In this document: positions 591 through 46,760 of the stretch, piece after piece | Numbering within the stretch: the stretch's first letter is position 1 | How the letters are laid out: every line of letters begins with the position of its first letter | Assembly: GCF_023698535.1 (NCBI RefSeq) | Contig: NZ_JALJCL010000007.1 | Span: 1 to 64,000, forward strand | From: Halorientalis regularis | GTDB lineage: Archaea; Halobacteriota; Halobacteria; Halobacteriales; Haloarculaceae | Direction: 5' to 3' | DNA length: 64,000 bases | Notes under the pieces: generated by a model | What the model was told of the DNA's origin: nothing | The model's database searches: none | The model's input: the letters and a program-made list of their open reading frames with translations, nothing else | Program-made: the position numbers and the translations under genes

Positions 591-2420
591 TCAGGTCATC
601 GATACCGTCTCGTAATCCATCCTGGCAGCGACCTCGGGGTGAACCGCCGCGAGGAGGAATCGGGTGGTATCGGTGAAGTACTCGATGAGACGTTCCGTCC
701 GGGACGCGTCGAACGCCCCGAGTGAATCGACCAACAGGAGCGGTGAGACTTCGTCGACGTCGTAGACGAGGAAACCGGCCAGGCCGAGGACGAGGCCGAT
801 GACTGCCCGTTCGCTCTCGGCAAGGTGTTCGATGGAATCTTCTCGCACGACGCCATCGACCTCACGCGCGATGACGATGTCGAAATTGCCGGTGAGGCGA
901 ACGCGTTCGATGCGCTCGAAATCGAGTGCATCGATCAGATCGTCCATCGTCTCGTTGAACACGTCTCGCAGCTCCTGTTCCTGGTTCTCGATTCGGTCGG
1001 TCAGCGACCGGATATCCGCGCTCAGTTGTTCGATTTCCGCACGCTTTCGCTCGCGCTCGTCACGTTTCGACTCCAGGTCCTCGATGGTTTCTTCCAGTCG
1101 CTCGGCGTCCCGCCGGAGCGTCTGGAGTTCGAGACGAGTCTCCTCGATTTCGGTCGCCAGGTCCGACCGAGACTCGGCACGCTCGCTCTCGTGGGTTTCG
1201 ATCTCGTCGGCGATATCGTCGAGTTCGGCTTCGATACGCTCCAGTTCGGTTCGCTTCTGTTCGAGGGAGTCGCGACGCTGCTGGAGCTGCTGGTCGATGT
1301 CTGTCAGGTCGCTCTCCAGCTTCTGGACGCGCCGGCGCGCGTCCGTGGCCGCCTCGATGTCGTTCTCTATGTCGGACAGCTCCGGTTCCCGTTCGCGCTT
1401 GCGTTGTTTGTCCTGTTTGAGGACCTCCTGAAGCTCATCGACGGTGTCCTCGAAGTCACTTCGGGGCGCAGGGTTTCCGCAGGCCCAGCAGGAGAGCTCG
1501 TCGTCAACGAGTCCGGGTTCGTAGCCGAGGCTCCCGGCGTACTCCGAGTCGAGGAGTTCCCGGTTCGCTGACAGAACCGACTGAAGGATGTCGATACGTT
1601 CGGTAATCTCGGTGAGTTCTTCACGAACGGACTCACGCTCCTGTTTGAGACGTTCGATGTCGTGGGAGTCGGCGTGTTCACGGGCCGTTTCGAGATCGGA
1701 TTCGACCGTCGACCGACGGTCGGTCAGTCGGTCGATTGTCTCCTCCAGTTCGTCGATCTGGTCCCGATAGTTCTCCCGTTCCGTCCGCAGGTCGGTCCGT
1801 TGCTCCCGGAGTTCCTCGAGCCGTTCGTCGTCGGTTTCGGTGTCGTTTTGCTCGGCGTAGAGGTCGTCGAGTTCCGAATCGAGTGTTTCGATTCGCTCCC
1901 GTGTCTCGGCGAGTTCGTCTGTGTGGTCTGCCAGGCGCTCGTCGATATCGTCCAGTCGTTCGACGTCACGACGCAGGTCGCGCTTCCGTGACATCTTCTC
2001 GGACCGCTCGGACTCGAGTGCCTCGATGTCGATCGGCTCTTTCAGCAGCGACTCGACGTCCTCCCCCTTTTCGACGGCGCTCCGGAGTGGATTCGTACCG
2101 AGCAGGCACGCGAACTGGTTGACGAGGTCGGTGTCGTCCGGGTCGCTCAGCCAGCTGTCGTCGCTGATCTCGTATCCAGCCCCGTTCCGCCGGGCCTGGC
2201 GCTGTATCTCGGTGTCATCGAGACTGAGCCGAACGCTCGCCAGGTCGGCCCCGCTGCGAACGGGGACCTCGTCGGCACCGAGTGCGAACTGGACACTGCG
2301 CAGGAGCGATGTCTTGTTCGAGGCGTTGCGGCCGACGACGAGTGTCGTTCCCGGCCCGAAACTGAACGATGCGTCCGATATCCCACCGATGTTCTGGATG
2401 TCGAGTTCGATCTTACTCAT
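591..2420 (-). CDS. Archaea-specific SMC-related protein (RecF/Rad50-like ATPase)
   Basis: A 609-residue protein with an N-terminal nucleotide-binding half, about 400 residues of charged heptad coiled coil, and a C-terminal ATPase half. The Walker A region is GRNASNKT (residues 30-37), so the usual GK(S/T) is replaced by NKT; this is as I recall for this haloarchaeal family. A CWAC motif at about residues 310-313 sits mid-coil and looks like a Rad50-type zinc hook. The Walker B region LLLVDS is at about 561-566, near the C terminus. ATG at 2420. The family is known only as SMC-like; a role in DNA or cell-shape organisation is inferred. RdfA, which I recall as a frequent companion, is 42 kb away here. 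Confidence 0.85.
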   Translation of the reverse strand: MSKIELDIQNIGGISDASFSFGPGTTLVVGRNASNKTSLLRSVQFALGADEVPVRSGADLASVRLSLDDTEIQRQARRNGAGYEISDDSWLSDPDDTDLVNQFACLLGTNPLRSAVEKGEDVESLLKEPIDIEALESERSEKMSRKRDLRRDVERLDDIDERLADHTDELAETRERIETLDSELDDLYAEQNDTETDDERLEELREQRTDLRTERENYRDQIDELEETIDRLTDRRSTVESDLETAREHADSHDIERLKQERESVREELTEITERIDILQSVLSANRELLDSEYAGSLGYEPGLVDDELSCWACGNPAPRSDFEDTVDELQEVLKQDKQRKREREPELSDIENDIEAATDARRRVQKLESDLTDIDQQLQQRRDSLEQKRTELERIEAELDDIADEIETHESERAESRSDLATEIEETRLELQTLRRDAERLEETIEDLESKRDERERKRAEIEQLSADIRSLTDRIENQEQELRDVFNETMDDLIDALDFERIERVRLTGNFDIVIAREVDGVVREDSIEHLAESERAVIGLVLGLAGFLVYDVDEVSPLLLVDSLGAFDASRTERLIEYFTDTTRFLLAAVHPEVAARMDYETVSMT

Positions 2421-2597: not shown

Positions 2598-3077
2598 TCA
2601 CTGCCGCTGCCCGGCCGAGAGATAATCGTCGACGTTGGTGTCGCGGCTCGTCTCGATCGACTGCTCCACGTCGGCGACGACGCCGAGTTCGCGAACCTGG
2701 CTGACGAGTTCGTCGACCCGGGAGTTCGTGGCGGCCGTCGCGACGGCGTAGATGTCGTACGTGCCGACGCCGCGGGTCACCAGCCAGAACGGCATCTCGG
2801 AAATCCGGTCCAGGGCCGTCGACTTGGCGTCGGCGTCGTCGGTCACCGTGATCGCCAGTCGGACGATCTCCCACTCGTGTTCTTCCGGTTCGAGGAGAAA
2901 GAAAATCGAGGTGCGGTCGAGCAGCTTCGACACTCGGTGCCGGACTCCCTCACTGGACATCTCGTGTCCTTCGCTGGCCAGTCGTTCCGCGATGTCCGAG
3001 TACGGTGTCCGCGGACCGTTCGCGAGAGCTTTGAGGATGATCCGGTCCACCTCGTCGGCGTCGGGTTCGAGAGACAT
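2598..3077 (-). CDS. Lrp/AsnC-family transcriptional regulator
   Basis: A 159-residue protein. An N-terminal helix-turn-helix starts at DEVDRIILKALANGPRTPYS and includes an AERLASEG...SSEGVRHRVSKLL region. A ligand/oligomerisation-like domain follows, with an alternating pattern around WLVTRGVGTYDIYAVA. The ATG at 3077 (MSLEPDADEVDR) was chosen because the family begins directly with the HTH. In-frame GTG at 3140 and ATG at 3125 would add 16-21 atypical residues. A perfect 19-bp palindrome and a TATA element lie upstream, suggesting autoregulation. It faces the catabolic cluster and could control its first operon. Confidence 0.8.
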   Translation of the reverse strand: MSLEPDADEVDRIILKALANGPRTPYSDIAERLASEGHEMSSEGVRHRVSKLLDRTSIFFLLEPEEHEWEIVRLAITVTDDADAKSTALDRISEMPFWLVTRGVGTYDIYAVATAATNSRVDELVSQVRELGVVADVEQSIETSRDTNVDDYLSAGQRQ

Positions 3078-3167
3078 ACCCAGACAGGTGCTATCTACCA
3101 CCATCGTCTTTTCGGTAAACCCCATAACGGTGGTCGACACCCCTATGTTCGTCGATACGACCGGAAT

Positions 3168-3562: not shown

Positions 3563-4435
3563 ATGGCTGTTTCGACGATGACGACGGCGATCGAAGCCGT
3601 CGACGGCGGCGATGTCGTGTACGTAGGCGGATTCGGATTCGCCCAACCGTTCTCTGCAGTTCACGAACTGATCCGACAGGGCGTCTCGGATTTACACGTG
3701 ATTCGATCGTCCGGCGGTGTCTTGCTCGATCAGCTCGTCGGTGCCGGCTGTGTTTCGGAGACGACGATCGCACACTGCTGGAACGCGGTCGGGCCGACAC
3801 CGACGAGCGCGTTCCGGCGGGCCGCCGAGGACGGTGTCCCGCGGCCCATCACGGTCGAAGAACACGGACTCGGAAACCTCGTCTTGCGACTGTTCGCTGG
3901 CGCACGGCGACTGCCGTTCGTCCCGGCCGGCCCCGTCGAATCGACGGGACAGTTCGAAAACCAGTCGTTCTCGGGCAAGTTCAGCGAAGTTACCTTCGAC
4001 GGCGATAGCCACTACGTGATGGAACCGCTGAATCCGGACGTCAGTATCATCCACGTTCCCCGTGCCGACGAACGGGGGAACGCTCAGTTGACCGGCGCGC
4101 GCGCCGAGATCAAACACGGCGCGATGGCCGCCGACACGCTCCTGGTCACGACTGAAGAGGTAGTCTCCTCGGAACAGATCCAGGACACACCGGACGAGAC
4201 GGTCGTTCCCGGGTTCATGGTCGATCACGTCGTCGAATCGCCCGGCGGTGCCCATCCCTCCGGCGTACTCGGGTGCTACGGGCGGGACATCGACTACCTG
4301 GAACACTACGGCGAGGTGACTGGCTCGCTCGACGACTTCGAGGCGTATCTCGACGAGTGGGTCTACGGCGTCAGCGACCGGGCGGAGTACCTCGAAGCTG
4401 TTCGAGCCAGTGGGTTCGCGGAGGTGTCCCCGTGA
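3563..4435 (+). CDS. Class I CoA-transferase, subunit A (glutaconate CoA-transferase/IpdA-like)
   Basis: A 290-residue alpha subunit of a two-subunit CoA-transferase. The glycine-rich start VDGGDVVYVGGFGFAQPF is followed by repeated Rossmann-like CoA-transferase folds (TIAHCWNAVGPTPTSAFRRA; SIIHVPRADERGNAQLTGAR). The ATG at 3563 was preferred over the in-frame ATG at 3428, since the extra 45 residues are unlike the family. The stop overlaps the GTG start of subunit B (GTGA), so the two are translationally coupled. Family members transfer CoA between organic acids, or hydrolyse ring-opened CoA esters (IpdAB of steroid degradation). Which applies here is not decidable from sequence. Confidence 0.85.
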   Translation: MAVSTMTTAIEAVDGGDVVYVGGFGFAQPFSAVHELIRQGVSDLHVIRSSGGVLLDQLVGAGCVSETTIAHCWNAVGPTPTSAFRRAAEDGVPRPITVEEHGLGNLVLRLFAGARRLPFVPAGPVESTGQFENQSFSGKFSEVTFDGDSHYVMEPLNPDVSIIHVPRADERGNAQLTGARAEIKHGAMAADTLLVTTEEVVSSEQIQDTPDETVVPGFMVDHVVESPGGAHPSGVLGCYGRDIDYLEHYGEVTGSLDDFEAYLDEWVYGVSDRAEYLEAVRASGFAEVSP

Positions 4436-5223
4436 GCGACCCTGAGCCGACACAGCGCGAACAGTTGCTCTACACGGCGGCCCAGGAATTCCGTGACGAG
4501 AGCACCGTCTTCACCGGATTTCACTGGCCCGTCGTCGCCGCCAGAGTGGCGAGAAAACTCCACGCCCCGAACCTCACCTCCGTCTTCGAGGCCGGCATCG
4601 TCTACCGGGGCACCTCGGAGACGCTACCCACGAGCACGACCGAAATAAATGCCTTCGACGGAAATACCGACATGTACGGCAACTCGATTGACACGTTGCA
4701 CACGTTCCTCAAGTCGGGCCACCTCGACCGCGCGGCCATCGACGTGTCGAACGTCGACCGCTTCGGCAACGTCAACACCACGGTCATCGGAGACTACGAC
4801 GACCCTTCGGTCCGCCTGCCTGGTCCGGGCGGTGCCAACGATATCGCAACGCACGCCGAGGACCTGACGCTCATCTGTGGCTCGGCCGACCCGGAGCGCT
4901 ACCAGGACCGGGTTTCCTACGTGTCGAGCCCTGGTCACATCGACGGCGACGGCTCCCGCGAGGCGGCCGGCTTCGAGCCGGGGACCGGCCCCTCGAAGCT
5001 CATCACCCCGCTCGGAACGTTCCGCTTCGACGAGACCGGGCGCACACGACTCGACCGGCTCGTTCCCGGGGCTACCGTCGCGGACGCCCGGGAAATGACT
5101 GGCTGGCCCATCGAGGATGGGGACCACGAGGCCCTTCCCGCCCCGGACGCAGACGAACTGGCTGTCGTCCGCGAGGTCCTCGAAGAAGCGGCGGACCGCA
5201 ATTACGCGGCGATTCGTCCCTGA
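4432..5223 (+). CDS. Class I CoA-transferase, subunit B (GctB/IpdB-like)
   Basis: A 263-residue beta subunit starting at GTG 4432, inside the stop of subunit A. The signature SVFEAGIVYRG places Glu53 at the position of the catalytic glutamate of class I CoA-transferases (E-x-G), so the pair should be catalytically competent. Further family features are AAIDVSNVDRFGNVNTTVIG and GPGGANDIATHAEDLTLI. It probably activates an acid or acts on a CoA-thioester ring cleavage product. It is the first functional pair of the catabolic supercluster. Confidence 0.87.
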   Translation: MSDPEPTQREQLLYTAAQEFRDESTVFTGFHWPVVAARVARKLHAPNLTSVFEAGIVYRGTSETLPTSTTEINAFDGNTDMYGNSIDTLHTFLKSGHLDRAAIDVSNVDRFGNVNTTVIGDYDDPSVRLPGPGGANDIATHAEDLTLICGSADPERYQDRVSYVSSPGHIDGDGSREAAGFEPGTGPSKLITPLGTFRFDETGRTRLDRLVPGATVADAREMTGWPIEDGDHEALPAPDADELAVVREVLEEAADRNYAAIRP

Positions 5224-5302: not shown

Positions 5303-6274
5303 ATGGCACATGTAACGACCAGGGAGTTGGTCCTCCCCGGATACCGGGTCTCCACGGGTACCATCCGCGACCAGTGGGGAGGCGGAGCGAGTGGCGTACA
5401 GCACAAAACAGTGCAGGCGAAAGACGACGATCCGACGACGCTGGCGACACGGGCGGGCCGCGCCGCGCTCGACGGACGGACGGACGTGGACGCCGTCTTC
5501 TTCGCCACGACGACCCCGGTCTACGAGTACGGGTCGGTGACGCCGTTTCTCGCCGACTCGCTCGGACTCGACGACGACACACACGTCCAGACGTTCGGCG
5601 AGTCGGCCCGAGCCGGCACCGCCGCGCTCCGGGCAGCCGGGAACGCCGTCGACGGCGACAGCGACACGGTCCTCGTCGTCGCCGCGGAAGCCCCGTCCCC
5701 CGCACCGCGAAGCGACTGGGAGAAAGTCGCTGGAGCGGGGGCCAGCGCCGCTCTCGTCGAGAGCGACGGCGAGGGCCTCGAGCGGGTGGCCGCGGGTACC
5801 TGTGCGCGCCCGTTACTCGACGAGTGGCAGGCCCCAGATAGCGACACGCTGTCGACCGCCGACGACCGCTTCGCGCGAAATATCGGGTACGTCGAGACGA
5901 GCCAGCAGGCTATCGAGCGGGCACTCGACGCCGCCGACTGGTCGGCCGAATCGCTCGACGCGCTCGTGGCGACCCACCCCAACGGCAAGTTCGCCGGTCG
6001 GCTGGCCGGTGCCGTCGGCGTCGGCGACGACGTGCTGGCGACGCCGGCGTTCGGTCGCGAGTACGGCAACCTCCGTGCGGCGAGTGCGCTGGGGTCGCTG
6101 GCACTGGCCGACCTCACCGCAGGGGACCGCCTCGTCGTCGCGGGCTACGGCGTCGGGACGGCCGACGCGCTGGCCTACGAGGTGTCCGAACCGCCCGCGG
6201 CGGCGTCAGTCGCCGACGAATCGACCGACCTCGACTACGTCGACTACCTCGACCACGTCGATCAACTGGAGTGA
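5303..6274 (+). CDS. HMG-CoA synthase-like protein lacking the catalytic cysteine
   Basis: A 323-residue thiolase-fold protein of the archaeal HMG-CoA synthase type. The equivalent of the active-site motif FACKAGTAAL reads ESARAGTAAL, so catalytic Cys is Ala102 (codon gcc at 5606-5608). The later THPNGKF motif (HMGCS: HQPNGKF) and AGYGVGTADA are kept. In archaea, HMGCS, a DUF35 protein and a thiolase form one complex; here the three genes follow in that order (DUF35 7 bases downstream). With the nucleophile gone, this subunit is probably structural or has a different chemistry. ATG 5303 was chosen (MAHVTTREL); an upstream TTG adds only four residues. Confidence 0.82.
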   Translation: MAHVTTRELVLPGYRVSTGTIRDQWGGGASGVQHKTVQAKDDDPTTLATRAGRAALDGRTDVDAVFFATTTPVYEYGSVTPFLADSLGLDDDTHVQTFGESARAGTAALRAAGNAVDGDSDTVLVVAAEAPSPAPRSDWEKVAGAGASAALVESDGEGLERVAAGTCARPLLDEWQAPDSDTLSTADDRFARNIGYVETSQQAIERALDAADWSAESLDALVATHPNGKFAGRLAGAVGVGDDVLATPAFGREYGNLRAASALGSLALADLTAGDRLVVAGYGVGTADALAYEVSEPPAAASVADESTDLDYVDYLDHVDQLE

Positions 6275-6280
6275 TAACAG

Positions 6281-6679
6281 ATGCACACCACCATGCGGGA
6301 GTTCCGCGACCGGGCAGCGAAGTTCGGCCTCGACCGGGCCGAGTGTACCGACTGCGGTCGGATGAACGATCCGACGGCCGAACTGTGTTACCACTGCGGG
6401 GGAGACGCCTTCGAGGACGTGACCCTCTCGCCGCGGGGCGAGGTGCAGACCTACGTCGTCCAGCACGCCCTCCCGGAGACGTTCGACACACCTCTCCCCA
6501 TCGCCATCGTCGAGACGCCGGAGGGCGGGAAGGTCCTCGGGATGTTCACGGAGGCCGACGAACCCCATTCGGTGGCGATCGGTGACACCGTGACCATCGA
6601 ACTGAAACGGTTCGACCGGCAGGACGGACAGGTCCTCTACGAACCGAAGTTCCGCCTCGACGGAGGGTCGTCGGCATGA
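6281..6679 (+). CDS. Zn-ribbon/OB-fold protein (DUF35), thiolase partner
   Basis: A 132-residue protein. The N-terminal rubredoxin-like zinc ribbon is CTDCG...CYHCG (about residues 22-39), followed by an OB-fold with GEVQTYVVQHA and PLPIAIVETPEGGKVLGMF. DUF35 proteins bridge thiolase and HMG-CoA synthase in archaea and bind CoA. It starts 7 bases after the HMGCS-like gene and its stop overlaps the thiolase start (ATGA at 6676), so the three are one operon. In-frame ATG at 6293 is an alternative start. Confidence 0.88.
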   Translation: MHTTMREFRDRAAKFGLDRAECTDCGRMNDPTAELCYHCGGDAFEDVTLSPRGEVQTYVVQHALPETFDTPLPIAIVETPEGGKVLGMFTEADEPHSVAIGDTVTIELKRFDRQDGQVLYEPKFRLDGGSSA

Positions 6680-7839
6680 GCGACGACGTGGCCGTCGTCG
6701 GAGCGGGGATGATCCCCTTCGGCGAGCGGTTCGAACTGGGCTACTACGACATGATCGGCCGGGCCTACAAGGAGGCAAAGTCCCACGTCGACCACGGCAT
6801 CGACGATTCCGACGTCGACGCCGCCTGGCTCGGGACCGCCTACGGGACCCTCTCGAACGACGCCGAGATCGTCTCGGGGGCGCGCCTGAGCGGGGCGACC
6901 GGCCTCAAGGGCATCCCCATCACGCGCGTCGAGAACGCCTGCGCGACCGGCAGCGACGCAGTGCGCAACGCCGCCGCCGCGGTCCAGGCCGGCCAGGCCG
7001 ACGTGGCCGTCGTCGTCGGGGCCGAGAAGATGCGGGACAAGCCCACCGACGAGTTCATGAAGACGGTGACGAACCGGCCGACGACCCGCGGGATGACCGC
7101 GCCGGCCTTCTTCGCCATGTACGCCCAGCGGCACATGCAGGAGTACGGCACCACTCGCGAACAGATGGCCGAGGTGGCCGTCAAGAACCACGCGAACGGG
7201 ACCAAGTGCGAGTACTCACACTTCGACTTCGAGGTCGACGCCGAGTCCGTCCTCGACGCGCCGCGCGTCTCCTACCCCTTCGGGCTGTACGACTGTTCCC
7301 CACAGACCGACGGGGCCGCCTGTCTCGTCCTGGCGAGCGAGGACGTGGCCGACTCCTACACCGACGACCCCGTCTGGGTCCGCGGGACCGGCAACAGCAC
7401 GGTGCCCTACGACATGACCAAACGGGACGACTACCTCGAAGCCGAGCCGACCATCGAGGCCGCGAGCCAGGCCTACGAGATGGCCGGGCTCGGCCCCGAC
7501 GACGTGGACGTGGTCGAACAGCACGACTGTTTCACCTTCACGGAACTGCTCAACATGGAGGACCTGGGCTTCTGTGAGAAAGGCGAGGGCGGCGAGTTCG
7601 TCGCGAGCGGCGCGACCCGGCTGGACGGTGACCTCCCGGTCAACCCGTCGGGCGGTCTCAAAGCGAAGGGTCACCCCATCGGCGCGACCGGCGTCGCACA
7701 GATCTGCGAACTCGTCTGGCAACTCCGGAACGAGGTCGGCGAGCGACAGGTCCCGGACGCGACGACCGGCCTCCAGCACAACCTCGCCGGGTCGCTCGCG
7801 GTCAGTAACGTCACCGTCGTCTCGACGGAACGGGACTGA
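6676..7839 (+). CDS. Thiolase (acetyl-CoA C-acyltransferase, SCP2-type)
   Basis: A 387-residue protein with all thiolase catalytic elements: nucleophile Cys in ENACATGSDAV, His in VEQHDCFTFTEL, the C-terminal GGLKAKGHPIGATGVAQ motif, and HNLAG near the end. It should cleave a 3-ketoacyl-CoA (or condense two acyl-CoAs), working with the overlapping DUF35 protein. The nearby HMGCS-like subunit lacks its Cys, so this is the only competent active site of the predicted three-protein complex. In the catabolic context thiolysis is the likely direction. Confidence 0.92.
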   Translation: MSDDVAVVGAGMIPFGERFELGYYDMIGRAYKEAKSHVDHGIDDSDVDAAWLGTAYGTLSNDAEIVSGARLSGATGLKGIPITRVENACATGSDAVRNAAAAVQAGQADVAVVVGAEKMRDKPTDEFMKTVTNRPTTRGMTAPAFFAMYAQRHMQEYGTTREQMAEVAVKNHANGTKCEYSHFDFEVDAESVLDAPRVSYPFGLYDCSPQTDGAACLVLASEDVADSYTDDPVWVRGTGNSTVPYDMTKRDDYLEAEPTIEAASQAYEMAGLGPDDVDVVEQHDCFTFTELLNMEDLGFCEKGEGGEFVASGATRLDGDLPVNPSGGLKAKGHPIGATGVAQICELVWQLRNEVGERQVPDATTGLQHNLAGSLAVSNVTVVSTERD

Positions 7840-7922: not shown

Positions 7923-8702
7923 ATGTACGAAGACGTGCAGTACGAGGCGAGCGAGGGTATCGCGACCATCACCATCGACCGTCCGGACGTGCTCAATGCC
8001 TTCCGTGAGCAGACCATTCTGGAGTTGAACGCCGCGATTCGGGACGCCCGCGAGGACGACGGCGTCTACACCATCGTGCTCACCGGTGCCGACGGGGCGT
8101 TCTGTGCCGGGGCCGACACCACCGAGATGCCCGCCTGGGACGAACAGGCCAAGGAGGATTACGCGGGCTACCTCTGGGGCGTCCAGAACGTCGTCCGCCA
8201 GCTCCGGGCGGCCTCGAAACCATCCATCGCGGCCGTCGCCGGCCCCGCCGTCGGCGCCGGCTGTGACTTCGGGCTGGCCTGTGACATGCGCGTGGTCGGC
8301 CCCGACGCCTTCTTCCGCGAGGGGTTCGTCCGCGTCGGCCTGATCCCCGGCGACGGCGGCGGGTGGCTGCTCCCCCGGCTGATCGGTGAGTCCGCCGCCA
8401 AACAGTACCTGCTCACCGGCCGCGACATCGAACCGGACGACGCCGTGGACCTCGGGCTCGCCGTCGAGGAGGCCGAGGACCCGCTCGCGGCCGCCCACGA
8501 CCTGGCCGAGGAGTTGCTCGGCCTGCCCGCAACCGCCGTCCAGCGGACGAACGACCTGGTCGACTCCGAACAGGGATTCGAGGACTACTGCGAGCGAGCC
8601 ATCGAGTACCAGTGGGACTGCGTCAACGACCCGGAACACCACGAGGCTGTCGCGGCGTTCAACGAGAACCGCGACCCGGAGTACGACCGCGACTACAGCT
8701 AG
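7923..8702 (+). CDS. Enoyl-CoA hydratase/isomerase family protein (crotonase fold)
   Basis: A 259-residue crotonase. Oxyanion-hole segments FCAGADTTEM and VAGPAVGAGCD are intact. Of the two catalytic glutamates of classical hydratases, the first is Asp115 (GAGCDFG instead of GGCEL). The second aligns with Phe135 in FFREGFVRVGLIPG, although Glu133 lies two residues before. It is therefore unlikely to be a standard enoyl-CoA hydratase; isomerase, lyase or ring-opening hydrolase chemistry is possible. It stands alone after the thiolase operon (83-base gap) and is convergent with the next gene. Confidence 0.85.
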   Translation: MYEDVQYEASEGIATITIDRPDVLNAFREQTILELNAAIRDAREDDGVYTIVLTGADGAFCAGADTTEMPAWDEQAKEDYAGYLWGVQNVVRQLRAASKPSIAAVAGPAVGAGCDFGLACDMRVVGPDAFFREGFVRVGLIPGDGGGWLLPRLIGESAAKQYLLTGRDIEPDDAVDLGLAVEEAEDPLAAAHDLAEELLGLPATAVQRTNDLVDSEQGFEDYCERAIEYQWDCVNDPEHHEAVAAFNENRDPEYDRDYS

Positions 8703-8723: not shown

Positions 8724-9857
8724 TCAGACCAGGTCCGGAATCCCGTTTTTCTTCAGTTCGGCCGCGATCTGGTTCTTCTGGATCTCGTCGGTGCCAGCCG
8801 CCAGCCGCCGACCACGGGCGCGTTTGTAGAGATTTTCCAGCGGGTGGCCCTGCTGGTAGCCGTTCGCGCCGAACACCTGCAGCGACTCGCTGGTGACGTG
8901 CTCGACGGTCTCGGAGGCGAGCAGTTTCGCCAGCGACGCGTCCAGCCGGTCGGGAATACGCCCCTGCTGTTCGGCGTTGACCGCTGCACGGTAGGTCAGC
9001 GCCCGCGCCGACTCCAGCCGTTTCGCCATGTCGGCGAGTTTCCACTCGATGCCCTGGAAGTCGCCGATGGGCTGGCCGAACTGCTCGCGCTGCTGTGCGT
9101 AGTCGATAGCCTTCGAGAGCGCGTTCCGGCTCCAGGCGTTCGCGACGGTCGCGCTGCCCAGTCGCTCCCAGTTGAGCGCCTTGAGCTGCTGTTTGAACCC
9201 CTCTTCGCCGCGGGTCACGACGTTCTCCTCGGGAACGACCACGTCTTCCATCCGGAAGTGGGTCTGTTCGTGGTCGGCCATGTTGGTGTAGTGCTGTTCG
9301 ATCTCGACGCCGTCCCAGTCGAACTCGATCACGACCGAACCGAGTCCCTCCGGGAACTTCGTCCAGACCAAGGCGGCGCTGGACGACTTGACGTGACTGA
9401 CCCAGATTTTCTCGCCGTTCAACACGAGATCGCCGTCCTGTTCAGTGACTTCGGTCCGCATCGAGCTCGCGTCCGAGCCGGATTCGGGTTCGGAGATGGC
9501 GATCACGACGGCGTCCTCGCCCGCTGTCACCGGCGGGAGGTAGCGTTCTTTGGCCTCGTCGGTTCCGAACATCTCGATGGCCCGTGGGGCGACCATCTGC
9601 TGATTGTAGAGGAACTCCGCCGTGTCGGGACAGACTTTCCCGACTGCCTCGATGGTCAACATGGCTTCGAGTTCACCCATGCCGCCGCCACCGTACTCCT
9701 CGGCGATGTTGACCCCGAGGAACCCACGGTCGGCGAGCAATTCGATGTTCGGCCACGGCGCTTCCTGCCACTCGAAGGCGTCGGCTTCGAACTCCGATTC
9801 CGCGAGGTCGACGAGTGACGACACCAGCATCTCCTGTTCTGCGGAGAGCGAGAGCAT
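8724..9857 (-). CDS. Acyl-CoA dehydrogenase (helix-G glutamate type)
   Basis: A 377-residue FAD flavoenzyme. FAD/substrate motifs are ISEPESGSDASS, LNGEKIWVSH and QVFGANGYQQGHPLENLYK. The usual catalytic Glu position (YEGTSEI) reads LAAGTDEIQ, so it is Ala. A glutamate is present in LNWERLGSA, where isovaleryl- and long-chain acyl-CoA dehydrogenases keep their base. This suggests a branched or bulky acyl substrate. ATG 9857 was chosen (MLSLSAEQEM) because the upstream 30 residues are non-homologous. It is monocistronic, divergent from the next acyl-CoA dehydrogenase across a 170-base promoter region. Confidence 0.9.
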   Translation of the reverse strand: MLSLSAEQEMLVSSLVDLAESEFEADAFEWQEAPWPNIELLADRGFLGVNIAEEYGGGGMGELEAMLTIEAVGKVCPDTAEFLYNQQMVAPRAIEMFGTDEAKERYLPPVTAGEDAVVIAISEPESGSDASSMRTEVTEQDGDLVLNGEKIWVSHVKSSSAALVWTKFPEGLGSVVIEFDWDGVEIEQHYTNMADHEQTHFRMEDVVVPEENVVTRGEEGFKQQLKALNWERLGSATVANAWSRNALSKAIDYAQQREQFGQPIGDFQGIEWKLADMAKRLESARALTYRAAVNAEQQGRIPDRLDASLAKLLASETVEHVTSESLQVFGANGYQQGHPLENLYKRARGRRLAAGTDEIQKNQIAAELKKNGIPDLV

Positions 9858-9996
9858 ACTCGGGATAGCGAGTACGTAACCGTAAACCTTCCCCGGTCGG
9901 AAATCCGCCGCTGTCACATCTCTCTCCGAACTGGACGGTTCGGCCACGTCGTCGGACGGGCGCGGTGGTGCGGAGCCGCTACTGCCGTGGTACGAA

Positions 9997-10006
9997 CTTT
10001 TATTTT
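9997..10006 (+). promoter_or_regulatory. TATA box of acyl-CoA dehydrogenase gene at 10028
   Basis: The sequence acttttattt is centred about 27 bases before the ATG at 10028. This gives a leaderless transcript, the usual haloarchaeal arrangement, and supports that ATG over upstream in-frame starts. Confidence 0.6.
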
Positions 10007-10027
10007 CGCACCGCCGCAGTCTGTGGT

Positions 10028-11197
10028 ATGACGGTCAATCTGACCGACGAGGAGCGGGCCCTGCGTGACCGAACGCGCGAGTTCGGTACCGAGCACATCC
10101 AACCCGACGCGATGGAGTACGTCGAGTCCGGGGAGTGGCCCTGGGACATCTACGAGAAGGCGGCCCAGGAGGGACTCATCGGCCTGCCCTTCGAGGCGGA
10201 ATACGGCGGGCAGGACGCCTCGCTGGTCGAGCAGTCGCTCGTCGCCCAGGAGTTCTGCCGCGCGGACTCCTCGGTCGGGATCGCCCTCCACGGGTCGATG
10301 ACGGGCTGTCACGCGATGTCCTCGCTGGGCACGCCCGGGCAGAAGGAGCGCTGGCTCGAACCGGTCACCCGCGGCGAGATGACGACGGCCATCGGCCTGA
10401 CCGAACCCGACTCCGGGTCGGCCCTGGCCGAGACGACGACGACCGCCGAGAAGGACGGCGACGAGTACGTCATCAACGGGGAGAAAGACTGGATCGCCAA
10501 CGGCGTCAGCGGCGACTGGGTGGCGACGCTCTGTCGCACGGACCCCGACCCCGACAAACCCCACCGCGGGCTGAGCCTCATCGTCGTCCCCACGGACGCC
10601 GACGGGTACGAGGCCGAGGAACGGGAGAAACTCGGGCTCGACGCCGCCGAACACGCCCGGCTGACCTACGACGACGTGCGAGTCCCCCAGGCGAACCTGC
10701 TCGGCGAGGAGGAGGGAAAGGGGTTCTACCAGGCGCTGGACTGGCTCGAACACGGCCGGGTCGACATCGCCGCCGCCCACCTCGGGATGGCCGAGGGAGC
10801 CTTCGACCGCGCGCTCGCCAGGGCCAAGGACCGCGAACAGGGCGGCCAGCGTATCGGCGACTACCAGGGGATGCGCTGGAAACTGGCGGACATGCGTAAA
10901 CAGATCGAAGTGGCCAATTCACAGGTGTATCGCGCCGCCAGGGCCATCGACGAGGCCGAGGCCGGCGGCGAAGTCGAGGAGAGCCTGATCGAGCAGGCCA
11001 GCATCGCCAAGCTCTACGCCACCGAGATCGCCTGCGAGGTGGCCGAGGAAGCGGTCCAGATCTTCGGCGGGGCCGGCTACGGCACCGACGAGGAGGTCGA
11101 ACACTTCTACCGCGACGTGAAGGCCGGCACGATCTACGAGGGGACCAGCGAGATCCAGCGCAACACCATCGGGAAGGTGCTCTTCGATGAGCTCTGA
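10028..11197 (+). CDS. Acyl-CoA dehydrogenase
   Basis: A 389-residue protein of the standard family: GLTEPDSGSALAETTTTAE, VINGEKDWIANG, a QIFGGAGYGTDEEVEHFYRD segment and the catalytic IYEGTSEIQRNTIG with Glu in the usual place. It oxidises an acyl-CoA to the 2-enoyl-CoA, passing electrons to ETF. The ATG at 10028 sits 27 bases after a TATA box. Its end overlaps the next gene (LLM oxidoreductase) by 11 bases, so the two are cotranscribed and probably act in consecutive steps. Confidence 0.92.
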   Translation: MTVNLTDEERALRDRTREFGTEHIQPDAMEYVESGEWPWDIYEKAAQEGLIGLPFEAEYGGQDASLVEQSLVAQEFCRADSSVGIALHGSMTGCHAMSSLGTPGQKERWLEPVTRGEMTTAIGLTEPDSGSALAETTTTAEKDGDEYVINGEKDWIANGVSGDWVATLCRTDPDPDKPHRGLSLIVVPTDADGYEAEEREKLGLDAAEHARLTYDDVRVPQANLLGEEEGKGFYQALDWLEHGRVDIAAAHLGMAEGAFDRALARAKDREQGGQRIGDYQGMRWKLADMRKQIEVANSQVYRAARAIDEAEAGGEVEESLIEQASIAKLYATEIACEVAEEAVQIFGGAGYGTDEEVEHFYRDVKAGTIYEGTSEIQRNTIGKVLFDEL

Positions 11198-12113
11198 GAT
11201 GGACTTCGGCGTCATGCTGTCGACGTTCGGCGACCACGCCTCGCCCGAGGCGTTCCGCCGCGTCGCTACGGCCGCCGAGGGCGCGGGGTTCGACTCGGTG
11301 TGGGCCGGCGACCACGTCTCGCTCCCGGCCGAGATTCCCGACGAATACCCCTTCTCGCCCAGCGGCGAATCACCGTTCCACGTCTCGCAGGACACCTACG
11401 ACGTATTCGGCGTCCTCTCACACCTGGCGGCGGTCACCGACTCGGTCGATCTCGGGACGAACACCTGCATCGTGCCCTACCGGCACCCGGTGGTGCTGGC
11501 GCGGAACGCCCTCACCGTCGAAGCGCTCTCGGACGGCCGGTTCGACTTCGGCGTCGCCCCCGGCTGGATGGAGACGGAGTTCGAGGTTCTCGACGTGCCC
11601 TTCGAGGAGCGGGGCAGCCGGACCGACGAGTTCCTCGAGATGTTCACACGGGCCTGCGAGGAGGGGCAGATCTCCTTCGACGGCCCGCACCACTCCTTCC
11701 AGGAGACCGGCTTCCACCCGACGCCCGACGACGACGGGCCGACGATCTGGCTGGGCGGGAAGTCAGGGGCGGCGTTCCGGCGGACCGCACAGTTCGGCGA
11801 CGGCTGGACGATCTTCTGGGACCGCCCCGACGCCATCGCGGCGGGCCGGGAGCGACTCATGAACGCCTGGACCGACTTCGAGCGCGAGGGCGACCCCGAG
11901 GTGGCCGTCATCCGGGCCACCGAGGTCGGCGACGACACCGAGCGCGACCCCGAGAAGCCACTCGTCGGCGAACCCGAGAAGATCGTCGAAGACATCGAGG
12001 CGTACGCCGACGCCGGGACCACGCGCGTCGTCATCGACTTCTACACGACCGACATCGACGAGCAGATCGAGCAGGTCGAGCGGTTCGGCGACGGCGTCGT
12101 CGACGCGTTCTGA
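11187..12113 (+). CDS. LLM-class (F420/FMN-dependent) oxidoreductase
   Basis: A 308-residue luciferase-like TIM-barrel protein. Family features are FDSVWAGDHVSLPAE near the N terminus, TCIVPYRHPVVLARNALTVE, LSDGRFDFGVAPGWMETEFE and the C-terminal DAGTTRVVIDFYTTD. Haloarchaea make F420, so an F420-dependent redox step is likely, but FMN cannot be excluded. The first ATG (11187) overlaps the acyl-CoA dehydrogenase stop. An ATG at 11199, just after that stop, is equally plausible and removes four residues. Fusion-like coupling to a dehydrogenase suggests a shared pathway step. Confidence 0.87.
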   Translation: MSSEMDFGVMLSTFGDHASPEAFRRVATAAEGAGFDSVWAGDHVSLPAEIPDEYPFSPSGESPFHVSQDTYDVFGVLSHLAAVTDSVDLGTNTCIVPYRHPVVLARNALTVEALSDGRFDFGVAPGWMETEFEVLDVPFEERGSRTDEFLEMFTRACEEGQISFDGPHHSFQETGFHPTPDDDGPTIWLGGKSGAAFRRTAQFGDGWTIFWDRPDAIAAGRERLMNAWTDFEREGDPEVAVIRATEVGDDTERDPEKPLVGEPEKIVEDIEAYADAGTTRVVIDFYTTDIDEQIEQVERFGDGVVDAF

Positions 12114-45342: not shown

Positions 45343-46380
45343 TCAGACCAGTGAGTAGATGTGAGTCTCGTAGGTTTCCCGGACGCGACTGCCCCAGTTG
45401 TGGGTGTATGTGTCGATTACGTCCGACGCCACGTCGCCACGGAGGTACTTGACGATACCACGGTCCCCCGTCCGGTCACGGAGGTGCGTCGTGAAGAAGT
45501 GTCGGAAGTAGTGTGGTGTGACGTTCTCGTCGGCCCCGCCGCCGGTCCGGTACCAGCCCATGCGTTCGGCGTTCGTGGCGACGATGTGGTGGACGGCGTC
45601 GATAGTGACGCGTTCGCCCCAGTTACGGCTCGTGCTGACGAATACCGGTTCGGCCGGGGAGACGGGGTCCGGTCGGACGGCGAGCCACTGCTCCAGTGTC
45701 GCTTTCAGCTCCGCGTCGACGGGGACGACCGTCGCACGTTTGCGTTTGTTCGACGCGTCGCGGCGCTCACCGTTGATTCGCTCACCGCGTGCGGGTGCGT
45801 CGTCGACGTAGATGGAGTCCGGACGGCCCTGTAACTGGGGTCGAACCTCGTCGATCCCGTCGTCCGACAGGGCCACGCCGTCCAGGTTGAGGTCACGAGC
45901 GTCGAGATTGCACAGTTCGCCGGATCGCATCCCCGTCTTGAGCAGCGTCGTCACGATAGCGTCGGCCAGCGGATGCTGGATCGTCTCGACGAATCCCCGC
46001 ATCTCTTCCACGGAGAGGTCGCGCCTGGTCGGATCGGTGTGGATCGACTCGTCCATCTCCTCGATGACGACGGTCATCGGATTCGCGTCGAACACGCCGA
46101 CCTGCACCATGTACGAGTAAAACCGGTGGAGGTAGGAGGCGTAGGTCGCGATGGAACTCTCCGCGTGCGAGCCACGGAGCGTGTGAATCCAGGACATACA
46201 GTCCCGATAGGACGCTTCCTCGAGAGTTCCTAGCCCGTTCGCGTCGAGATACGTCTCGAACTCCCGGAGAACCCGGTCGTAGGAATTCCGTGTCCGGGCC
46301 GATTTGCCCTGGAATTCGATGTCCTGGAGGAAGTACGCCACTGGATCGTCCGGATTTTCCGCGGACTGTGCCTGGCTCAT
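45343..46380 (-). CDS. XerC/D-like tyrosine recombinase
   Basis: A 345-residue site-specific recombinase. A SAM-like N domain (FLQDIEFQGKSARTRNSYDR) is followed by a catalytic domain with Arg in GMRSGELCNLDARD, a basic NKRKRATVVPV stretch, His-x-x-Arg in TPHYFRHFFTTHL and the nucleophilic Tyr in VIDTYTHNW. ATG 46380 overlaps the stop of the DUF5805 gene (ATGA). No flanking repeats or cargo were seen, so a chromosome-maintenance role is as likely as mobile-element integration. Confidence 0.9.
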   Translation of the reverse strand: MSQAQSAENPDDPVAYFLQDIEFQGKSARTRNSYDRVLREFETYLDANGLGTLEEASYRDCMSWIHTLRGSHAESSIATYASYLHRFYSYMVQVGVFDANPMTVVIEEMDESIHTDPTRRDLSVEEMRGFVETIQHPLADAIVTTLLKTGMRSGELCNLDARDLNLDGVALSDDGIDEVRPQLQGRPDSIYVDDAPARGERINGERRDASNKRKRATVVPVDAELKATLEQWLAVRPDPVSPAEPVFVSTSRNWGERVTIDAVHHIVATNAERMGWYRTGGGADENVTPHYFRHFFTTHLRDRTGDRGIVKYLRGDVASDVIDTYTHNWGSRVRETYETHIYSLV

Positions 46381-46760
46381 CGATCCTCCAGAACGTAGCC
46401 GCCCTGTCGTGGGCTGTGCTGAATGCGCTGGCTCTCCTGGAGAGTCCGCTCTAGCTCCGATTCGATGTCGTCGGTCACGGCGGTCACGAGGTCGTCCCAG
46501 GAGCAACAGCCCCGCTCGCGCAGTTCAGCGACGATCTGCGCCTCCAGACCCTGATCGCTCTCGGCCGATGGATTTGTGGACGTGTCTCCATCGATGCCGC
46601 CCTCGAAGCCCCGACGACCGGCCTGAACCATCGACCGAACGAACTCGCTGAGACTCATGTCCATCCGGTCGGCCTGTCGGTCCCACTCCTCTTTTTGATA
46701 CGCCGGGACGTACGTCCGAACGCTGGCCCGAGATGTGTCGACATCACCGTCAGCAGACAT
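46377..46760 (-). CDS. DUF5805-family ribbon-helix-helix-like protein
   Basis: A 127-residue haloarchaeal protein. The first 55 residues (VRTYVPAYQKEEWDRQADRM, then DMSLSEFVRSMVQAGRRGF) resemble a ribbon-helix-helix DNA-binding fold. The rest is an acidic stretch ending in ERTLQESQRIQHSPRQGGYV, which resembles a small winged-helix. It overlaps the recombinase, so it is probably a recombination directionality factor or regulator (inference). Confidence 0.75.
   Translation of the reverse strand: MSADGDVDTSRASVRTYVPAYQKEEWDRQADRMDMSLSEFVRSMVQAGRRGFEGGIDGDTSTNPSAESDQGLEAQIVAELRERGCCSWDDLVTAVTDDIESELERTLQESQRIQHSPRQGGYVLEDR

Follow-up and report, generated by a model that had tools for sequence, protein, structure and literature searches.

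The stretch examined here is the first 64,000 nucleotides of contig NZ_JALJCL010000007.1 from the haloarchaeon Halorientalis regularis (the window), and the question it raises is what a protein built like HMG-CoA synthase (HMGCS) could be doing once the catalytic residues of that enzyme are gone. The gene for this protein, P0001 (5303..6274, plus strand), is directly followed on the same strand by genes for a DUF35 protein (P0002, 6281..6679) and a thiolase (P0003, 6676..7839), with the DUF35 gene overlapping the start of the thiolase gene. We favor, with a probability of roughly 0.72, the reading that the trio forms a heteromeric thiolase in which the thiolase alone catalyzes, with the HMGCS-like chain as a structural, pocket-forming pseudoenzyme, likely in catabolic 3-ketoacyl-CoA cleavage.

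The HMGCS-like protein lacks all three catalytic residues

P0001 is 323 aa long and reads FGESARAGTAAL where archaeal HMGCS reads LEFACKAGTA. A gap-free alignment with the HMGCS of Methanothermococcus thermolithotrophicus (6ESQ chain I) places residue 102, an alanine (codon GCC, 5606..5608, plus strand), opposite the catalytic Cys114, which bears out the Cys-to-Ala exchange reported in the first-pass annotation. That annotation was also right that the fold remains, but it named the Cys as the only loss, and its statement that an HPNGKF motif is retained was misleading. The catalytic Glu82 is replaced by Thr70 (5510..5512, plus strand), and the catalytic His (H238 of 6ESQ_I) by Thr224 (5972..5974, plus strand). 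The reference motif reads FHQPNGKF, and it is its Gln, not its catalytic His, that aligns with His225 of P0001, one residue after Thr224. All three HMGCS catalytic residues (Glu, Cys, and His) are absent from P0001.

For comparison, we assembled 130 HMGCS-like sequences, to which 6ESQ_I and PhlA were added. The 130 came from haloarchaea, from further Halobacteriota, and from named genomes of bacteria and archaea; the sample was guided by search hits and is not a census. In this alignment no other cysteine takes the catalytic place: the sole Cys of P0001, C167, lies in a column where every catalytic HMGCS has Phe or Tyr and where just 3 of the 94 relatives without the catalytic Cys have a Cys. 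A second species of the genus carries an orthologue of P0001 that is 80% identical, sits in the same gene order, and carries Ser as residue 102 and Pro where the catalytic His would stand. Because of this orthologue and the 94 of 130 homologues without the Cys, Ala102 is, judged from the alignments, neither a sequencing accident nor chance. The two orthologues differ at both sites (Ala/Ser and Thr/Pro), and therefore neither the nucleophile nor the His position appears to be held.

The NCBIfam models for archaeal HMGCS (TIGR00748 / PRK04262) give the same picture, scoring P0001 at 49 bits against a cut-off of 353 and at 105.8 against 244; by sequence, then, P0001 is not an HMG-CoA synthase. 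Another contig of the same genome encodes a true haloarchaeal HMGCS, which scores 875 bits with NF041302 (cut-off 800) and has intact TES, FAC, and FH motifs, i.e., Glu, Cys, and His are all in place. Among the 116 relatives searched, an archaeal-type HMGCS above the TIGR00748 cut-off was present in only five.

Loss of the cysteine is a trait of a large clade

P0001 belongs to a large Cys-less clade, with loci in haloarchaea and beyond, and is not the singular case that the first pass had taken it for. Glu, Cys, and His occur together in 36 of the 130 homologues. Both Glu and Cys are missing from the remaining 94, of which only four keep the His and 61 have Thr at the Cys position. The four that keep His are haloarchaeal sequences (L073, L080, L081, and L175), and thus the three residues are not always lost together. 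In an unrooted tree, the Cys-less and catalytic sets are split by one branch, a single change, with a Shimodaira-Hasegawa-like approximate likelihood ratio test (SH-aLRT) support of 98, or 99 with the motif columns removed. On this tree, loss of the Cys is a family trait. The Cys-less set ranges over haloarchaea, other Halobacteriota, one Asgard genome, Actinomycetota, Chloroflexota, and Nitrospinota. P0001 and its orthologue form a private branch that is very long (length 1.9) and weakly placed; PhlA, also long-branched, is placed next to the catalytic HMGCS clade and not with the window pair.

None of the Cys-less members scanned reaches an NCBIfam equivalog cut-off, and public records label proteins of the clade variously as "HMG-CoA synthase", "ACP synthase", or "zinc ribbon protein". 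A profile built from the window pair alone found no match in the genome contigs, and loci were gathered with a thiolase alignment instead. A search of a plasmid collection returned six matches only, all haloarchaeal and distant. We would also like to note two groups of unusual frames. Three catalytic HMGCS with Glu, Cys, and His (L104:3184-4701, L105:2562-4085, and L106:3501-5081) have about 165 additional residues at the N-terminus, which the DUF35 profile does not recognize. In Pseudonocardia, Frankia, and an actinobacterial metagenome-assembled genome (L128, L134, and L136), the thiolase is preceded by a long frame that contains a DUF35 domain, with a very weak or no HMGCS-like match in its N-terminal part; these frames are possibly more divergent members of the clade.

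The Cys-less chain travels with a thiolase and DUF35

A thiolase gene is adjacent at every Cys-less locus sampled. DUF35 is fused to the C-terminus of the HMGCS-like chain in about two-thirds of these loci, a fraction that would rise if long C-terminal tails under the DUF35-profile threshold were counted, and is adjacent in nearly all the rest. The same pattern was found at loci retrieved with P0001, rather than the thiolase, as the query. Within the Cys-less set, distances between HMGCS-like chains correlate with those between their thiolases at r 0.92, a value reached by 0 of 500 permutations and one that the species' common history inflates. Relative to its thiolase, the HMGCS-like chain shows 1.84 times the divergence in the Cys-less set, compared with 0.92 where the Cys is kept; a faster Cys-less chain is what would be expected if catalysis was lost and the partnership kept.

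The same genome holds two further Cys-less HMGCS-like genes (C43:138701-139618 and C11:348377-349273; L002/L005 and L003/L006), each beside its own thiolase. One has a long C-terminal extension like that of the DUF35 fusions, and the other adjoins a DUF35 gene.

The predicted structure resembles chains of known three-part complexes

The AlphaFold model of P0001 has a predicted local distance difference test (pLDDT) score of 95.3. Its best fold match in the PDB is 6ESQ_I (Z 44.3, root-mean-square deviation 1.8 over 322 residues), followed by PhlA of PhlABC-type enzymes (Z 43.7-42.8, with 9SKH at 43.7 and 5MG5 at 43.2) and MucA (9VBO, Z 40.9), with ordinary HMGCS enzymes at 39 or below. By sequence, the best PDB match is PhlA. 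The nearest folds to the predicted model of P0001 are thus chains of known complexes of the thiolase-DUF35-HMGCS type. For a natural HMGCS-like/DUF35 fusion from a species of the same genus, a predicted template modelling score (pTM) of 0.92 was obtained for both domains together.

The M. thermolithotrophicus acetoacetyl-CoA thiolase/HMGCS/DUF35 complex (6ESQ) shares all three families with the window trio and provides, besides the closest fold to P0001, the nearest thiolase and DUF35 sequences among solved structures. Its HMGCS, in contrast, is catalytic (Glu82, Cys114, and His) and serves mevalonate synthesis rather than standing in a catabolic operon. PhlABC of Pseudomonas protegens (PpATase; 5M3K and 5MG5), a dodecamer of the A2C2/B4 type, likewise joins a thiolase-like chain that keeps its Cys, a DUF35 chain, and an HMGCS-like chain, PhlA, that lacks Cys and Glu and has the same fold as P0001 (Z 43). 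Bound phloroglucinol is contacted there by PhlC residues only, the three chains line one continuous cavity, and activity requires co-expression of all three (PMC6392133). PhlABC differs in that PhlC is a CoA-independent phenol acylase in an antibiotic-synthesis setting, and in that PhlA, at 21% identity, adjoins the catalytic clade in the tree. MucABC of Streptococcus macacae (9VBO and 9VBT) is another three-part acyltransferase whose HMGCS/KAS III-like chain has this fold and, in a pairwise alignment, Glu at the Cys position; it acetylates a tetramate, and identity is about 20%.

Other relatives share only parts of this arrangement. In Haloferax mediterranei, the beta-ketothiolases PhaA and BktB combine a haloarchaeal thiolase with an OB-fold subunit that is indispensable for ketothiolase activity; they are two-subunit enzymes of polyhydroxyalkanoate synthesis with reported Ser-His-His catalytic residues, and no HMGCS-like subunit is reported (PMC7137286). 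Benzoylsuccinyl-CoA thiolase BbsAB (7PXP) is a catabolic thiolase with a DUF35 subunit, and both of its chains have matches here, but it has no HMGCS-like subunit. The steroid aldolases Ltp2-ChsH2 and Sal-Shy combine a thiolase fold with a DUF35 partner, but they carry out retro-aldol chemistry with YDHF or YDCY in place of HDCF and also lack an HMGCS-like subunit.

The partner thiolase is intact and the operon looks catabolic

P0003 is a thiolase of the SCP2/archaeal type (NF004720, 407.8 bits; 6ESQ_A, E 4.9e-71), and its catalytic residues are all present: Cys89 (6940-6942), H283-D-C285-F286 (7522-7533), and His333 of a GHP motif (7672-7674). C89, HDCF, and GH333 are invariant across 29 aligned partner thiolases. 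The match to PhlC is much weaker (E 2.8e-27). P0003 does not match the Ser-His-His of haloarchaeal PhaA/BktB, nor does it have the signature of the Ltp2/Sal aldolases, YDHF/YDCY without a nucleophilic Cys. HDCF is the motif of SCP-2 thiolases and YDHF/YDCY that of the aldolases (PMC12329534), and aldol chemistry is therefore unlikely. P0002 consists of a zinc ribbon (C22, C25, C36, and C39) and an OB fold (PF01796, E 9.9e-11; 6ESQ_E, E 9.2e-11).

Upstream of the trio on the plus strand lie two CoA-transferase subunit genes, a GctA-like A subunit at 3563..4435 (PF01144; best PDB match 1POI_A, E 4.5e-35), whose start was set by comparison with the orthologue's open reading frame (ORF), which begins at the matching Met, and a GctB-like B subunit at 4432..5223 (PF01144; 1POI_B, E 1.3e-31). 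Glu52 of the latter (4585-4587) is aligned with the Glu of the 1POI_B motif IVESG, which we take to be the catalytic Glu of glutaconate CoA-transferase subunit B. Steroid catabolism via IpdAB was considered for this pair and rejected, as the subunits are nearer to GctAB than to IpdAB (E 1.2e-20 and 2.8e-7) and the subunit-B Glu is kept; a decarboxylase of the AibAB type was dropped on the same grounds. A GctAB-like CoA-transferase also stands beside the trio, on the opposite strand, in another haloarchaeal clade (L044:2484-4178, L048:6310-8027, and L085:182-928), which is a second, independent association. Between the CoA-transferase genes and P0001 (5266..5302, plus strand), an intergenic alignment with the second species shows conservation of a CTTTAA box some 30 nt ahead of the P0001 ATG, which may be the gene's own promoter with a short leader.

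Downstream are an enoyl-CoA hydratase/isomerase family gene (7923..8702, plus strand; PF00378, E 5.8e-47), also syntenic in the second species, and then, within 8724..12113, a pair of acyl-CoA dehydrogenase-like genes (the first on the minus strand, the second on the plus strand), named from sequence resemblance, and a luciferase-like oxidoreductase (11187-12113, PF00296), with synteny at 90-93% identity. An apparent branched-chain-type ABC transporter follows. The whole block from the CoA-transferases through the luciferase-like gene is syntenic in the second species (G005) at 80-93% identity. The ratio of non-synonymous to synonymous substitution (dN/dS) for the P0001 gene is 0.22; the gene is constrained, but less so than any other in a comparison of nine genes, where the remaining values were 0.08-0.17.

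Farther out, the syntenic species also keeps a coiled-coil ATPase-like gene (591-2420, minus strand; PF13476) and an AsnC-type regulator (2598-3140, minus strand) upstream of the operon. Between 12154 and 39208 are further genes of degradation type, including an ABC transporter, AMP-forming CoA ligases, a 3-hydroxyacyl-CoA dehydrogenase, MaoC, a cyclase family gene, a TRAP transporter, and family III CoA-transferases, and a phage-integrase-family gene (45343-46506, minus strand; PF00589 and PF02899) lies some kb past them.

A pseudoenzyme subunit and the alternatives

In the reading we favor, the three adjacent genes would encode one heteromeric thiolase with the architecture of the archaeal thiolase/HMGCS/DUF35 complex. 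Cys89 of P0003 would take the acyl group, with His333 and the HDCF residues acting as acid/base, and P0002 would bridge the chains and help bind CoA. P0001 would be a pseudoenzyme that keeps the complex assembled and lines the cavity shared for CoA and substrate, comparable to PhlA in PhlABC; we infer complex formation and this pocket role by analogy. The most likely reaction would be 3-ketoacyl-CoA cleavage in a catabolic pathway, the thiolytic direction being suggested by the degradation genes around the trio (the CoA-transferase, enoyl-CoA hydratase, and acyl-CoA dehydrogenases). Two proposals of the first pass are supported here, namely that the HMGCS-like chain is part of a unit with thiolase and DUF35 in an operon of catabolic appearance and that it acts as a non-catalytic scaffold, the latter by the loss of the three catalytic residues, the place among the closest solved relatives of PhlA, for which such a loss has been demonstrated, and the intact partner thiolase.

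Several points weigh against this reading. The interface of P0001 with its partners is taken over from homologues, the co-inheritance statistic is inflated as described, and the window pair, given the great length of its private branch, may have taken on a different function. In addition, the same genome has three thiolase-DUF35 pairs with no HMGCS-like gene nearby (C11:176872-178017, C9:23353-24465, and C2:81159-82019), and such a subunit is therefore not essential to every haloarchaeal thiolase. A more specific proposal, which we put forward tentatively, is that the Cys-less clade may be a widespread group of pseudoenzyme subunits in Archaea and Bacteria, in which what is left of the HMGCS pocket now receives the acyl chain on a swinging CoA arm and so sets the substrate range of the thiolase.

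The first pass had also suggested that P0001 performs aldol or hydrolase chemistry, and one could extend this to any new reaction, decarboxylation included, at the old active site. The retained pocket-lining fold, the purifying selection on P0001, and the Thr found at the Cys position in so many relatives would fit such a role. We consider it doubtful, as the window lineage alternates between Ala and Ser at the Cys position and Thr and Pro at the His position, leaving no fixed elbow residue, and as the excess divergence over the thiolase is seen in the Cys-less chain and not in catalytic HMGCS. Aldol chemistry is further countered by the partner. That P0003 is itself an aldolase of the Ltp2/Sal type, with the trio performing retro-aldol cleavage, is very improbable: Ltp2 and Sal are likewise thiolase-fold proteins held by DUF35 domains, but their motif is YDHF or YDCY, and in Sal a Gly replaces the nucleophilic Cys; P0003 has HDCF and Cys89.

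The trio could instead be an acyltransferase like PhlABC, C-acylating a phenolic or enol acceptor, given that PhlA is the best PDB sequence match of P0001 and that PhlABC and MucABC share the three-part make-up with a non-catalytic HMGCS-like chain. This too is improbable, since P0003 is far nearer to the archaeal acetoacetyl-CoA thiolase and SCP2 thiolases than to PhlC and has the SCP-2 motif, the neighbors are degradation genes without a polyketide synthase, and PhlA groups apart from the window pair. There is very little to recommend the idea of a decaying remnant: the gene does evolve faster than its neighbors, but in two species it has an intact ORF, under constraint and at an unchanging place in the operon, and both Archaea and Bacteria have retained the wider Cys-less clade, largely as fusions to DUF35. 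Least credible of all is an HMG-CoA synthase working through another nucleophile such as Cys167. The fold and the PNGKF tail are retained, but Cys167 lies off the nucleophile elbow and is unconserved, Glu and His are lost as well, and a full HMGCS is encoded elsewhere in the genome.

Implications for annotation and for pseudoenzyme subunits

A non-catalytic HMGCS-like partner is already known from PhlA, and MucA is, by its structure, probably a further one. What appears to be new is the wide occurrence of such chains as a clade in thiolase operons, mostly fused to DUF35, and the short unfused version found here, which accompanies a CoA-transferase of the GctAB type in surroundings that look catabolic. 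Our search of the open literature found no description of a haloarchaeal HMGCS-like/DUF35/thiolase complex.

Clade members labelled as HMG-CoA synthase invite false assignments of the mevalonate pathway; the catalytic and Cys-less clades are cleanly separable by three residues, and this annotation can therefore be corrected at once. More broadly, the clade is a clear case of an enzyme kept as the non-catalytic partner of its former pathway neighbor. The thiolase-DUF35 pairs without an HMGCS-like gene are a natural comparison set for the role of the extra subunit, and a single genome that holds pairs both with and without this chain allows the contribution of a pseudoenzyme subunit to be tested.

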